A stretch of DNA of 64,000 nt from Lacunisphaera limnophila. Its GTDB lineage: Bacteria; Verrucomicrobiota; Verrucomicrobiia; Opitutales; Opitutaceae. The translations under genes were made by a program, and so were the position numbers. Below are positions 36,621 to 42,331 of this stretch, one piece after another. The stretch lies in contig NZ_CP016094.1 in NCBI RefSeq assembly GCF_001746835.1, forward strand, positions 2,805,501-2,869,500. The letters run 5' to 3'. Each line of letters opens with the position of its first letter. Within the stretch, counting starts at the first letter, position 1. Under the pieces are notes generated by a model. It was not told the origin of the DNA. It worked only from the letters and a program-made list of their open reading frames with translations, and did not search any database.

Positions 36621-38072
36621 TCAGCGCCGGTTCCAGCGGCCGCGCGAGAGGCCGCCGAACTTGCGCGGGCCGGGCGGCTGGCCGTGACCGCCACCACCGG
36701 GGGCGGGGGCCTGACCTTGCGGCGTGAACTGGCCGGGCTGCGCCGGGCGAGGCGCGGGAGCCTGGGCCTGGCTCGACGGCTGGAAAAACTTCTGCTCGCG
36801 GGCGGGCTGGTGGCCGCGGCCACCGCCGTAACCGCCCTGGCCGCCGCGGCCGCCACCCTGGCCCCCGCGACCGCCGCCGTGGCCGTGGGCCGGGCGTTGA
36901 CCGTGGGCGGGTGCCGCGCCCTGGAAACCCATCGCGGGTTTCGGGGCGGCGGCGTAGTTGAAGCCCTCGAGCTTGAGCTGCGGGACCTTCTGGCCGATGA
37001 AACGCTCGATGTCGCGGATCTCGCCGGTCTGGTCGGGCGTGGTGAGGGTGAAGGCGTCGCCGACGGCCATGGCGCGGCCGGTGCGGCCGATGCGGTGGAC
37101 GTAATCCTCGGGGTTGGCCGGGATGTCGTAATTGATAACGTGCGAGACGCCGGCGACGTCGATGCCACGGGCGGCGATGTCGGTGGCGACCATTACCTCG
37201 TATTTGCCGGACTTGAAACCCTCGAGGGCTTCGACGCGCTGCGACTGCGAGCGGTTGGCGTGGAGGACGGCGACGGAGTGGTTGGCGGCCTTGAGCTTGC
37301 GGGCGATCTTGTCGGCGCCGTGCTTGGTGCGGGAGAAGACCAGACAGCTTTGGAAGTCGGTCTTCTCGAGCAGGGCGACGAGCAGGTCGAACTTGAGGCC
37401 CATCGGCACCGGGTAGAAGGCGTGGGTGACCGACTTGTTGACCGTGCGCGACACGCCGATCTCGACGCGGGCGGGATTGCGCAGGGCGAAGCGGGCAACC
37501 TCCTCGATCTCGGGCGGGACGGTGGCCGAGAAGAACAGCGTCTGGCGCTCGCGCGGGCACATCGCGATGATCTTCTTCACGTCCTTGACGAAGCCCATGT
37601 CGAGCATGCGGTCGACCTCGTCGAGGATGAGGATCTTGAGGTTGTCGAGGCGGAGGGTCTTCTCGTTGAGGAAGTCCATCAGGCGGCCGGGCGTGGCGAT
37701 GACGATGTCGGTGCCCGCCTGGATCTCGCTGCGCTGGCGGCCGTAGCCGACGCCGCCGTGGACGACGGTGGCGCGGATGTCGGTGAAGCGGCCGAAGTCG
37801 CGGAAGGCGGTCTCGACCTGAGCGGCGAGTTCGCGGGTGGGCTCGAGGACGAGGACGCGCGGGCCGCGGGGCTCGTGCTTGCCGAGGCGGGCGAGGACGG
37901 GGAGGGCGAAGGCGGCGGTCTTGCCGGTGCCGGTCTGGGCCGAGCCGATCAGGTCGCCGCCGCCGAGCACGACCGGGATGGCGCGCAGCTGGATGGGCGT
38001 CGGGTCAACGTAGCCCATGGCTTTGACACCGTTGACGAGGGAGGGCGGCAGCCCGAGCTTGGAAAATGGCAT
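36621..38072 (-). CDS. DEAD-box RNA helicase (RhlE-like) with Gly/Gln/Arg-rich tail
   Basis: The 483-aa protein has the complete set of helicase motifs: Q motif (PTPIQLRAIP), motif I AQTGTGKT, PTRELA, TPGR, motif II as DEVD in place of DEAD, SAT, ARGID and HRIGRTGR. The last 100 residues are rich in Gly, Gln, His and Pro, a flexible RNA-binding tail. Such helicases unwind structured RNA in ribosome assembly, mRNA decay or cold response. It starts 9 nt after the stop of the KimA-like transporter gene, so both may share the riboswitch-controlled transcript. Confidence 0.93.
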   Translation of the reverse strand: MPFSKLGLPPSLVNGVKAMGYVDPTPIQLRAIPVVLGGGDLIGSAQTGTGKTAAFALPVLARLGKHEPRGPRVLVLEPTRELAAQVETAFRDFGRFTDIRATVVHGGVGYGRQRSEIQAGTDIVIATPGRLMDFLNEKTLRLDNLKILILDEVDRMLDMGFVKDVKKIIAMCPRERQTLFFSATVPPEIEEVARFALRNPARVEIGVSRTVNKSVTHAFYPVPMGLKFDLLVALLEKTDFQSCLVFSRTKHGADKIARKLKAANHSVAVLHANRSQSQRVEALEGFKSGKYEVMVATDIAARGIDVAGVSHVINYDIPANPEDYVHRIGRTGRAMAVGDAFTLTTPDQTGEIRDIERFIGQKVPQLKLEGFNYAAAPKPAMGFQGAAPAHGQRPAHGHGGGRGGQGGGRGGQGGYGGGRGHQPAREQKFFQPSSQAQAPAPRPAQPGQFTPQGQAPAPGGGGHGQPPGPRKFGGLSRGRWNRR

Positions 38073-38081
38073 AGCGGGTCA

Positions 38082-40091
38082 TTAGCCGGCCATTTGCGGC
38101 TCAACGCGAGGCAAATCCTCACCCACGCGGAGCGGCAGAACCACGAACGGCAGGCTGGCGCGGAAGAAGCGCTGCTGCAACATGAAGGCCGTGTGGTTGT
38201 GCAGCCAGCGCGTTAGGCGGGTTTCCTGAGCGAAGAGCAGTTGGCCGGCGAAGAAGACGTGGTTGGGGAATTGGGCCGCCGCCTGGGTGGCAAGCGTCAT
38301 CACCTCCTCGGTGACATCGTGGCCCACGGCGGTGAAGGTCGCCGCGCCATAGCCATGCCGTCGGGCCCAGGCCGCGTAGCGTTCGGCTTCAGCCGCCGTG
38401 TGGGTGCGCAGCGCCTCGATTTCCGCCATGCCCTTGAAGTTGCCGGCGTCCACGGCGCCGACCTGCAGGAAAACGAAGTTGCGGAAACTGTCGCCGAACA
38501 TGCGCGGCACCTGCAGCGCGGTGTGCAGGCCGAGGCCATTGTAGCCATTGACAAGGAGAATGGCGGTGCGGTCCTGTTTTAGCAGGGTGGAGCTGGACTG
38601 GCCGACTTGAGCGGTGTCCGCGGCGCTGGACTCCACCAGGGTGTCGAGCCGGCGGAGTTGGTGCTGTACGCCCCGGTAGTGGCGCTTGATGGCGAAGGCG
38701 GTGGCGGTCAGCAGGCCGGTGACGAGCAGCGTGGCCCAGCCGCCCTCGTGGAATTTGACGAGCGTCAGCGAGACCAGGATGAACGAAGTCAGCGCCAGGC
38801 CGAAGCCGTTAACCGCGAGCTTGCGCCGCCACGCGGGCTCGGTGTGCCGCTCGCGCCACCAATGCCGTACCATGCCGAGCTGCGAAAGGGTGAAGGTGAT
38901 GAAGACGTTGATGGCATAGAGCACGACCAGCAGGGCGACGGAGCCGCGGGTGATGACCATCATCAGCAGGCCGGCGCCACCCATGAGGAGGATGCCATTT
39001 TGGGTCACAAAGCGGTCGCTCAGGTTGGCGAACCGGGCGGGGAACCAGCGGTCGAGGGCCATATTGGCCAGCACGCGTGGACCGTCGAGGAAACCCGCTT
39101 GCGCGGCGATGAAGAGCAGCGCGGCCTCGGCGGCGAGGGTGGTGAAGACGAAGGCCGTGCCGGTGGCACCCCAGCCGGCGGTCATTTTCTCGAAGAGAAC
39201 CGCGTTGAGGGTCTTGCCCGCCACCGGGGTCACGGCATAGAGCAGGTAGGCGAGGAGCAGGCCGCCCACCGTGACGGCCAGGGACACGCCCATGTAGAGC
39301 ATGGTGCGACGGCCGGTCCGGACACGCGGTTCGCGGAGAATGGGCAGGCCGTTGCTGACCGCCTCGATGCCGGTATAGGTGCCCGCGCCCATGCTGTAAG
39401 CCTTGAGCAGGATGGCGAGAAGGCCGATCCAGCCGAGTTCGCCGCTGACGGTGCGGACCTCCTGCACGGTCGCAGCGGCCACACCGCCCAGTTCCGGACC
39501 ATGGGAGAACAACGCGTAGAGGATGGCGAAGGCGTGGGTGCCGATGAAGACGAAGAAGACGGGCACCCAGATCATGACGGATTCGCGGACTCCGCGCAGG
39601 TTGAGCACGGTGAGGCCGGCCACACCGGCCAGGGCGAAGGGTAGCTTCCACGCCAGCCATGCCGGCGGCAGGAGACTGAAGAGCGCATCGGCGCCACTCG
39701 CCACGGAGATGGTGATGGTCAGGACATAGTCGATCAACAGGGCGGAACCGGAGACTACACCGGCCGCAGGGGAGAGGAGCTTACTCGCCACGAGATAGCC
39801 GCCGCCGCCGCTGGGAAACAGAGCGATGATCTGTGAATAGCTGGCGCAGATGGCCGTGATCGTGATGATCGACGCGAGGGCGATGAACACCGCGAGGTGG
39901 GGATGGGCGCCAAGCGTGCGGAAGGTTTCCTCCGGGCCATAGCAGGAGGACGAGAGGCCATCGGCGCCAAGGCCGACCCAGGCGAAGAGGGCGGCGAGCG
40001 ACACCTTGTGAAAGAGGTCGCGGTCGGTCAGCGAACGCGCGCGACCGACGATGAGGGATTTCAACGACCCGAGGATGGTCGAGGCAGGCAT
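38082..40091 (-). CDS. KimA-like APC-superfamily potassium transporter
   Basis: The 669-aa protein has about twelve membrane helices (residues about 30-460), then a soluble C-terminal domain of about 190 residues resembling the dimerising cytoplasmic domain of KimA. The N-terminal FAWVGLGADGLSSSCYGPEE matches the GSDALSSVAYG-type motif of the KimA/YdaO group of high-affinity K+:H+ symporters. Amino-acid transport by APC relatives is the alternative. The K+ assignment is strengthened by a c-di-AMP riboswitch in the leader, the same combination as in Bacillus subtilis ydaO (kimA). ATG 40091 is used because residues upstream are not family-like. The helicase gene follows after 9 nt. Confidence 0.82.
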   Translation of the reverse strand: MPASTILGSLKSLIVGRARSLTDRDLFHKVSLAALFAWVGLGADGLSSSCYGPEETFRTLGAHPHLAVFIALASIITITAICASYSQIIALFPSGGGGYLVASKLLSPAAGVVSGSALLIDYVLTITISVASGADALFSLLPPAWLAWKLPFALAGVAGLTVLNLRGVRESVMIWVPVFFVFIGTHAFAILYALFSHGPELGGVAAATVQEVRTVSGELGWIGLLAILLKAYSMGAGTYTGIEAVSNGLPILREPRVRTGRRTMLYMGVSLAVTVGGLLLAYLLYAVTPVAGKTLNAVLFEKMTAGWGATGTAFVFTTLAAEAALLFIAAQAGFLDGPRVLANMALDRWFPARFANLSDRFVTQNGILLMGGAGLLMMVITRGSVALLVVLYAINVFITFTLSQLGMVRHWWRERHTEPAWRRKLAVNGFGLALTSFILVSLTLVKFHEGGWATLLVTGLLTATAFAIKRHYRGVQHQLRRLDTLVESSAADTAQVGQSSSTLLKQDRTAILLVNGYNGLGLHTALQVPRMFGDSFRNFVFLQVGAVDAGNFKGMAEIEALRTHTAAEAERYAAWARRHGYGAATFTAVGHDVTEEVMTLATQAAAQFPNHVFFAGQLLFAQETRLTRWLHNHTAFMLQQRFFRASLPFVVLPLRVGEDLPRVEPQMAG

Positions 40092-40215
40092 AGGTTTGTT
40101 GTCTCCGACATGCGCCCGCCCTCGAAGCGGTGTTCCCGATTCGGTGGACGGTCGCGGTTGAATTGGGGAGACCGTGGGGACAGCGGCCAAAGCCGTTGCC
40201 CTAGGGGATCACCCT

Positions 40216-40360
40216 TCCCATTGCCGACGAGGTTAGCTGACGGGCTAGGTCCTAGGAAGTGACCTTGCTCGCGGTTGCCCGCGACCATGCGCCCCGTCCG
40301 CCGCGCGCGAGCGCGGTGGAATTTGGGTCCCCCGTGAAAACGCCGAGGAAGCGGCGTTGC
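40216..40360 (-). promoter_or_regulatory. c-di-AMP riboswitch (ydaO-yuaA type) in the transporter leader
   Basis: Reading the minus strand, the two most conserved blocks of this aptamer are present in order: GGGGGACCCAAAT (about 40334-40322) and CCCGTCAGCTAACCTCGT then CGGC (40244-40223). Between them lies GGGGCGCAT followed by AAGGTCACTTCCTAGGACC, corresponding to the pseudo-symmetric core of known ydaO aptamers. The 5' end has the hairpin AACGCCG-CTTCCT-CGGCGTT. About 125 nt remain to the ATG at 40091 for an expression platform; no T-run terminator is evident, so control may be translational or Rho-dependent. Known members switch genes off when c-di-AMP is high. No protein gene occupies this leader. 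Confidence 0.85.
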
Positions 40361-40528
40361 CTTAGGCGGTGAAAGAACGTGGCGGAGAATGCAAATCGGC
40401 TGGCCCCCGACAAGGGTGAGGATCCCCCAGACGGTGTAAGTCGCGCCCGGCCGGACGGATGGAGGCTCATTTTTACGAAACTGAACTTTAATCTCTCATT
40501 TTGCCGGCGGTCGGGGCACGCTGTGGCC

Positions 40529-42331
40529 ATGGAAAAACGTCCGTTCAGTGAACTGGGCCTCTCGCCCGAGATTTTGAAAGCCGTGGACAAGATGGGATTC
40601 GAGGAAGCCTCGCCCATCCAGACCGCGGTCATCCCCTTCGGCATGGCCGGGCGCGACGTCGTGGGCCAGTCGGCCACGGGGTCGGGCAAGACGGCGGCGT
40701 TTGCCATCCCCGCGATCGAGAAGGTCGACGTGTCGCTCAAGAAGGTGCAGGTGCTCGTGCTCTGCCCGACCCGCGAGTTGGCGGTGCAGGTGGCCGAGGA
40801 ATTCGGCAAGCTGGCCCTCTTCAAGAAGGGCCTGATGGAAGTGCCGATCTACGGCGGCCAGAGTTATGACCGGCAGTTCCGCGCGCTGGCGGCGGGGGCG
40901 CAGGTCGTGATCGGCACGCCGGGCCGCGTCATGGACCACATGGAGCGCGGCACGCTGCGGCTCGACGCGCTGAAGGTCATCGTGCTGGACGAGGCCGACC
41001 GGATGCTCGACATGGGTTTCCGTGACGACATCGAGCACGTGCTCAAGTCGGTGCCCGAGCAGCGCCAGTGTTTGTTTTTCTCGGCGACGATGCCGCACGC
41101 CATCCAGGAGCTGATCAAGCGCTACACCCGCGACCCGGAGTGGATCCGCATCGAGTCCCTGGCGCAGAACGCCCCGCAGGTGGAGCAGATCTATTTTGAA
41201 GTGGACCGCCGTTCGAAGATCGAGGTGCTCACGCGCCTGATCGACCTGCACGATTTCCGTTTCGGCATCATTTTCTGCAGCACCAAGATCATGGTGGACG
41301 AGCTCGACGAGCACCTGCACGCCCGTGGGTACTCGACCGACCGCCTGCACGGCGACATCACGCAGGCGCAGCGCACGCGGGTGATGGACAAGTTCCGCCG
41401 CCGCGGCTTCGAGTTCCTCGTCGCGACCGACGTGGCCGCCCGCGGCCTGGATGTGGACGACCTCGAGGTCGTGTTTAATTTCGACCTGCCCAACGATGCC
41501 GAGGACTACACGCACCGCATTGGCCGCACCGGCCGTGCGGGCAAGAAGGGCATGGCCTTCACCTTCGTGTCGGGCCGCGAGATCTACAAGTTGCAGGGCA
41601 TGATCAACTACGCTCGGCTGAAGATTCGGCGCGAACGCGTGCCGTCACTCGACGAGGTCGAGGAGGCCAAGGGCAACGTGTTCTACGAGAAACTCCGCGC
41701 CACGCTGGAGGAGAAGAAATTCAAGTCGCACGACCAGATGGTGGACCGCCTGCTGGAGCAGGGGCACACCAGCACGGACATTGCCTCGGCGCTGATCCAT
41801 CTCATGCAGGGTGACGTCGAGGAGCCGGCCAAGAAGACGGCCAAGGTTCGCGCGGAGCACATCGCGGCCAACGAGAGCCCGGCGCCGTCGGCGCCGGCCC
41901 CGCGTCCGGCTCCCGTCCGCCGTGATCCGCCGCCCGCGGCGACGCCCGCCCCTGTGGCCGCGGCTCCCGAGGGCCCGGCGTCCGCCGCGGTGCGTCCGGT
42001 CGAAGCGGCCCGTCCGCCCTCCGGCGACAAGTTCGCCGCGCAGAAACGGACTTATGAGCGCAAGCCGCGCACCGGGCGCGAGCCGGGTTACTCGGTCGTT
42101 TCCTTCAATATCGGCCGTCAGCATCTGGTGACCCCCGCCGATCTGGTCGGCAAGATCGCCGGCGTCACGCGCCTGCCGGCGAACGTCGTGGGGGCGATCG
42201 ACATTAACGAGGACCACACCCTCGTGGATGTGGTGAGCGAGCACGCCGAGCTGGTCGTGACCAAGCTGGCCGGCATCCGGATCAAGAACCAGTCCTTGAA
42301 GCTGGCTGTCGTGCCACCGCCGGCGGGGTGA
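40529..42331 (+). CDS. deaD: DEAD-box RNA helicase with DbpA-type RNA-binding domain (DeaD/CsdA-like)
   Basis: The 600-aa protein has the Q motif (SPIQTAVIP), motif I SATGSGKT, PTRELA, TPGR, DEAD, SAT, ARGLD and HRIGRTGR within about 370 residues. After a helical region and a Pro/Ala-rich linker, the last 75 residues form a DbpA-like RRM (VSFNIGRQHLVTPADLVGKIAGVT...). This is the DeaD/CsdA layout used in ribosome biogenesis at low temperature. ATG 40529 gives the family N-terminus; the upstream frame does not. A TTTAAT at 40487-40492 may be the -10. It is divergent from the riboswitch leader. Confidence 0.93.
   Translation: MEKRPFSELGLSPEILKAVDKMGFEEASPIQTAVIPFGMAGRDVVGQSATGSGKTAAFAIPAIEKVDVSLKKVQVLVLCPTRELAVQVAEEFGKLALFKKGLMEVPIYGGQSYDRQFRALAAGAQVVIGTPGRVMDHMERGTLRLDALKVIVLDEADRMLDMGFRDDIEHVLKSVPEQRQCLFFSATMPHAIQELIKRYTRDPEWIRIESLAQNAPQVEQIYFEVDRRSKIEVLTRLIDLHDFRFGIIFCSTKIMVDELDEHLHARGYSTDRLHGDITQAQRTRVMDKFRRRGFEFLVATDVAARGLDVDDLEVVFNFDLPNDAEDYTHRIGRTGRAGKKGMAFTFVSGREIYKLQGMINYARLKIRRERVPSLDEVEEAKGNVFYEKLRATLEEKKFKSHDQMVDRLLEQGHTSTDIASALIHLMQGDVEEPAKKTAKVRAEHIAANESPAPSAPAPRPAPVRRDPPPAATPAPVAAAPEGPASAAVRPVEAARPPSGDKFAAQKRTYERKPRTGREPGYSVVSFNIGRQHLVTPADLVGKIAGVTRLPANVVGAIDINEDHTLVDVVSEHAELVVTKLAGIRIKNQSLKLAVVPPPAG

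Follow-up and report, generated by a model that had tools for sequence, protein, structure and literature searches.

Riboswitches that respond to c-di-AMP are known or predicted in front of kimA, ktr, trk, kup and kdp genes. The closest described counterpart of the locus reported here is the ydaO/yuaA riboswitch of Bacillus subtilis kimA (ydaO), which, according to the available part of PMC6488665, has the same aptamer family and the same kind of regulated gene. The kdp riboswitch of Bacillus thuringiensis also shares the aptamer class and the context of K+ uptake, and its ligand induces OFF switching; it differs from ours in working through an intrinsic terminator switch and in having KdpFABC as its target (PMC6488665, same part). 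The Verrucomicrobia, too, appear in that source, in a list of phyla for which c-di-AMP riboswitches have been predicted upstream of ktr, trk, kdp and kup. The phylum and the K+ transporter genes are thus alike, whereas neither KimA nor SPFH proteins are named in the part available.

The window, that is, the whole stretch of 64,000 nucleotides of Lacunisphaera limnophila DNA that was analysed, carries an aptamer of 172 nt before a KimA-type gene, longer than the 134-position family model. Unlike the B. subtilis kimA leader it has no detected intrinsic terminator; instead there are a conserved helix, in which the aptamer tail pairs with a block further downstream, and a candidate anti-Shine-Dalgarno sequence. 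The verrucomicrobial predictions reportedly go back to a survey published in 2013. The preliminary description of this DNA knew of no account of such a system in the lineage, a claim to novelty that is weak because the Verrucomicrobia are already listed with predicted c-di-AMP riboswitches before K+ transporter genes (PMC6488665); a KimA case in Opitutaceae is not named in the available part of that source. For the Opitutaceae, the locus adds support to the view that c-di-AMP controls K+ uptake, here at a KimA gene. Such control was worked out in the Firmicutes, to which this family does not belong, and the leaders collected here are concrete material for testing it.

The aptamer and the KimA-type gene

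The covariance search proposed in the preliminary description returned an RF00379 match (Table 1) with an E-value of 9.5e-9 when the whole window was searched and 9e-11 for a 601-base stretch. The match spans all 134 model positions and its score, although modest, lies above the curated gathering score. The two aptamer cores named in the preliminary description, GGGGGACCCA and GTCAGCTAACCTCG, each occur once in the window, on the minus strand, and both the covariance alignment and the exact matches place them in the order and at the spacing of the family. Taken alone the first core is weak, with a chance expectation of 0.20, compared with 0.00 for the second even when one mismatch is allowed. 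On this sequence evidence we regard positions 40378-40207 as confirmed to be an ordinary c-di-AMP (ydaO/yuaA class) riboswitch aptamer, for which ligand binding is predicted. It is the sole RF00379 match found by covariance search of the genome, a single contig of 4,199,284 bases (completeness 99.99). Chance was also considered as the source of the match, and is ruled out by the covariance score together with the shuffles of the second core. The span first described, 38082-40360, takes in the whole transporter gene and the larger part of the aptamer; the RF00379 match goes 18 nt further, to 40378.

The aptamer and the KimA-type gene share one leader, with 115 nt between the aptamer and the ATG. 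A longer frame in the list of open reading frames, starting with TTG (from 40190), begins within this leader. That the downstream gene encodes a KimA-like K+ transporter, as had been stated, is borne out by the alignment to Bacillus KimA, which covers residues 23-469 of 6s3k, the transmembrane domain (E 2.8e-62). A second match, between the C-terminus and the cytoplasmic C-terminal domain of KimA, is weak (2.0 bits). Residues D36, Y43, D117, T121, S125, T230, E233 and Y377 of KimA, which the available part of PMC6994465 places around the ion sites, the gate and the proton site, are identical in the transporter, as read by eye from the phmmer alignment. Of the two other K+ importer families looked for in the genome, Kup is represented once and TrkH gave no match.

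Two DEAD-box RNA helicase-like genes, recognised from their motifs by eye, flank the KimA gene at 36621-38072 (-) and 40379-42331 (+), the latter being divergent from the riboswitch. Elsewhere in the window there is a bacterial small SRP RNA (RF00169, 170-268 (+), 65 bits).

Table 1. Positions of the riboswitch, its putative regulatory pairings, the KimA-type gene and the cyclase gene; positions are those of the window, except for the cyclase
Feature	Position	Strand	Evidence or remark
c-di-AMP riboswitch aptamer, RF00379 model 1-134	40207..40378	-	cmscan 50.4 bits, gathering score 38
Aptamer core GGGGGACCCA	40324..40333	-	exact match, once in the 64-kb window
Aptamer core GTCAGCTAACCTCG	40228..40241	-	exact match, once in window, 0 chance matches in 100 shuffles
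Aptamer 3' tail GGGTGATC, 5' arm of helix H1	40207..40214	-	pairs with 40173-40166
Block GGTCTCCC, 3' arm of H1 and candidate anti-Shine-Dalgarno	40166..40173	-	alignment, covariation, Shine-Dalgarno complementarity
Candidate Shine-Dalgarno GGAGAC, 9 nt before ATG	40101..40106	-	sequence
KimA-type K+ importer, 669 aa plus stop	38082..40091 (ATG 40091)	-	phmmer 2.8e-62 to KimA 6s3k; Pfam AA_permease_2
PTS_EIIA_2/DacZ_P/DAC protein, 450 aa	C1:3237610-3238959 (L002 562-1914)		domains PTS_EIIA_2 22-145, DacZ_P 164-283, DAC 314-439

Synthesis and breakdown of c-di-AMP

A search of the genome for a DacA-type cyclase had been suggested. One diadenylate cyclase domain is present (PF02457, 76.5 bits), but the type is another: the domain belongs to an EIIA/DacZ_P/DAC protein, an architecture which is neither that of the transmembrane CdaA nor that of the DNA-binding DisA. 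The EIIA part retains an 'MPH' stretch. Within the DAC domain the DGA motif is intact, and SRHA replaces the TRHR of CdaA, so that the Arg in third place of RHR is changed; because of this substitution the cyclase activity predicted from the domain is not certain. A protein search aligned the EIIA/DacZ_P/DAC protein over its full length in 59 of the 63 genomes sampled from the order, comprising all 36 from the window's family and 23 of the 27 others; G102 gave a weak match, and G146, G295 and G381 none. Elsewhere in the phylum, six more genomes align over both ends of the cyclase at 32-34% identity. A DAC domain as such occurs in all 23 riboswitch carriers, which is uninformative because 371 of the 387 phylum genomes have one.

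The available part of PMC6741144, which gives no domain make-up for the cyclase class DacD, assigns proteins from Lacunisphaera limnophila and other Opitutae to that class, and states that the DacZ branch contains bacterial proteins. Since Opitutae proteins are placed in DacD there, the EIIA-linked class has probably been catalogued already; among openly licensed papers we found no published account of an EIIA-cyclase fusion. Such a fusion offers a testable link from phosphotransfer to c-di-AMP.

A search for a GdpP/DhhP phosphodiesterase had likewise been suggested. PgpH, represented by the 7TM-7TMR_HD domain (PF07698), had no match in the genome, the same search being positive in 4 of 14 control genomes. 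There are three DHHA1 matches, and the one examined is, by its translation, a DhhP/NrnA-like frame adjoining a truB-like frame, which makes it a candidate only for the enzyme that degrades c-di-AMP.

Pairings between the aptamer and the start codon

No terminator-like site was found in 40050-40560. An alignment of 29 leaders shows a conserved region 3' of the aptamer, and the tail and the block of Table 1 can be joined in a helix of seven pairs, H1. Across these leaders 98.0% of the 203 cells are paired, compared with 40-66% in slid controls and 96.3% in column shuffles; the 29 were taken from 51 distinct leaders, a choice that favours H1. Changes on both sides occur in two of the seven pairs, a number that 20 of 500 shuffles also reached. 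With no structure supplied, RNAalifold returned nine pairs, four of which form the tail-block helix (4/7 of H1), with compensatory changes at two of the four. Left out of the count were leaders whose tail is unlike (L036, L032, L053, L060, L061, L072, L077, L078 and L080), the TrkH leaders L063, L071 and L074, and a more divergent set (L048, L062, L064, L065, L067, L075, L076, L079, L081 and L083). By eye, the three TrkH leaders show an equivalent pairing, such as GAGTGA/TCACTC.

The candidate Shine-Dalgarno GGAGAC is a perfect 6-bp complement of GTCTCC (40172-40167) inside the block. This second pairing, H2, and H1 are mutually exclusive, both using the block. The count of H2 covered 32 of the 51 leaders, with start codons chosen by eye, and an uninterrupted run of 5-7 pairs touching the Shine-Dalgarno core was present in 17 of the 32, the window included. 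In the TrkH leaders L063, L071 and L074 it is made of differing letters. The script did not see H2 in the other 15 leaders, in six because the block pattern was unrecognised and in nine because too few pairs stood in a row or the pairing missed the core. An H2-like pairing is visible by eye in L070, one of those with an unrecognised block pattern.

The energy model gave a less uniform picture. In the window, the minimum-energy fold of the leader contains H2 whether the tail is free or wholly blocked, and H1 is absent from it. When the whole tail was blocked in the 23 of 51 leaders used for this test, the predicted accessibility of the Shine-Dalgarno fell by at least 0.05 in 10, rose in 2 and changed less in 11, among them the window (0.24 to 0.20). 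The aptamer tail forms a pseudoknot; blocking only the five pseudoknot bases raised the accessibility in the window to 0.64, contrary to the simple scheme in which a sequestered tail closes the ribosome site. Nor was the block singled out in a scan of all 12-nt stretches: the tail pairs better with a conserved stretch around GGGAACACCG, which ranked top in the window and several relatives. For the tail and for the Shine-Dalgarno region, this duplex scan is not discriminating in GC-rich leaders.

Many Opitutaceae leaders share a conserved hairpin between the block and the Shine-Dalgarno, with a loop of GAACA or GAATA; in the window it reads CGGGAACACCG (40138-40128 (-)). This hairpin, too, is complementary in sequence to the aptamer tail. 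In two relatives, L032, labelled Omnitrophota, and L053, Pyrinomonas, a hairpin and a T run can be seen by eye directly after the aptamer, so that lineages seem not to share one expression platform. In the available parts of openly licensed papers we found no published description of a verrucomicrobial anti-Shine-Dalgarno platform.

Distribution of the riboswitch

Of 387 Verrucomicrobiota genomes, 23 gave an RF00379 match, which passed the cut-off in 22; among family members the figure was 9 of 41. The stricter filters of these two surveys lose weak matches. We examined the first recognised gene after the riboswitch at 28 verrucomicrobial loci, namely the window's own (L001) and L060-L086. It was KimA in 10, SPFH/band-7 in 8, Kup in 3 and TrkH in 3, and KdpA, a Na+/H+ exchanger, citrate synthase and a porin in one each. 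K+ transporter families, with the Na+/H+ exchanger family counted among them, make up 18 of the 28. The KimA count includes L084, where a short frame precedes KimA, and the leader and record of L082 are the same as those of L012.

Seen from the side of the transporter, RF00379 lies upstream on the same strand in 25 of 57 KimA-relative loci taken from genome_contigs. The other 32 include four with less than 400 nt upstream, and the 14-nt core, with up to two mismatches, is absent from all 32. Among the 21 genomes of the window's genus, a near-complete KimA is found in four, fragments in two and none in 15. The full aptamer accompanies KimA in the window and in L118. Both cores precede KimA in L120 as well, where the contig begins inside the aptamer, leaving the match below the Rfam threshold. 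In L119, from the congener G122, the KimA gene is present and the short leader read has no aptamer core. This congener keeps KimA without the aptamer, and the control is therefore dispensable. The divergent order of helicase-like gene and KimA seen in the window recurs there (L119, 900-1620).

Mode of control

We consider it very probable that the KimA leader contains an ordinary c-di-AMP riboswitch which lowers KimA when bound. The aptamer, the KimA-type gene and the DAC domain support the tie between c-di-AMP and K+ uptake that the preliminary description had proposed, and both a diadenylate cyclase domain and a covariance match are present in the genome. With K+ plentiful, c-di-AMP from the sole DAC protein would bind the aptamer and KimA synthesis would go down; as c-di-AMP falls, KimA would be made. 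We infer ligand binding and the OFF direction by analogy with precedents of the class. The step controlled is, somewhat more probably than not, translation. The ligand-bound aptamer would hold its 3' tail, and the block thus freed would cover the Shine-Dalgarno through H2 and stop translation; without ligand, H1 would form and leave the ribosome site free. The covarying tail-block helix, together with the anti-Shine-Dalgarno complement in 17 of 32 leaders, suggests translational control. H1 alone is silent on which state is the ligand-bound one.

The same riboswitch could instead act on transcription, through a Rho-dependent or unusual terminator as in Firmicutes; the intrinsic terminator of Bacillus kdp (PMC6488665, available part) is a precedent, L032 has a hairpin and T run right after its aptamer, by eye, and the energy model does not reproduce an H1/H2 switch in the window. 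We think this rather unlikely, since no terminator-like site was found in the window leader, and both H1 and the block proposed as anti-Shine-Dalgarno show conservation. The direction could also be reversed, with bound c-di-AMP stabilising the aptamer together with H1, so that the Shine-Dalgarno is freed and KimA goes up. As judged from the sequence, H1 is compatible with the aptamer and most of the tail pseudoknot, and the rise in accessibility on blocking the pseudoknot bases alone fits such an ON switch. Against it stand the lowered accessibility in 10 of 23 leaders when the whole tail is blocked and the fact that K+ uptake genes of the Bacillus systems described in PMC6488665 (available part) are turned off by c-di-AMP, and we judge an ON switch distinctly improbable. 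Least credible of all is a relic, an aptamer fold that persists without control in an organism that makes no c-di-AMP. The patchy distribution (23 of 387 genomes) and the replaced Arg of the DAC domain would agree with it, but relatives have kept the core bases as well as H1, 17 of 32 leaders keep the Shine-Dalgarno complement, and the cyclase is full length in 59 of the 63 sampled order genomes, with its DGA motif intact.

Association with SPFH/band-7 genes

The order riboswitch-SPFH-KimA occurs in 4 of the 57 KimA loci (L006, L010, L012 and L040). Riboswitches also stand before SPFH/band-7 genes in L067, L068, L077, L078, L080, L085 and L086, and in L023 (5316-6981) a Band_7 gene is preceded by a riboswitch of its own, the second at that locus. 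A search of the window's own genome for the SPFH protein returned no match, an outcome that carries no weight as evidence of absence. In openly licensed papers we did not find a published link between c-di-AMP riboswitches and flotillin/SPFH proteins. The list of genes in relatives (KimA, Kup, TrkH, KdpA and SPFH) suggests that SPFH scaffold proteins are part of c-di-AMP physiology.

A wider proposal, which we offer tentatively and which may well not hold, is that the c-di-AMP riboswitches of the Verrucomicrobiota have a lineage-specific translational platform, that the regulon couples K+ importers to SPFH/band-7 membrane-scaffold proteins, some of them in the order riboswitch-SPFH-KimA, and that in the window's order the signal is set by the PTS-EIIA-linked cyclase. 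If true, this cyclase would tie K+ uptake to the state of sugar or nitrogen phosphotransfer.

In L025, from 2877 onward, a short frame between the riboswitch and KimA starts with MNSFVTSP, comparable to the SPFH start MNSFLVSP in L068; judging by this likeness, it is possibly the remnant of a deleted SPFH gene.
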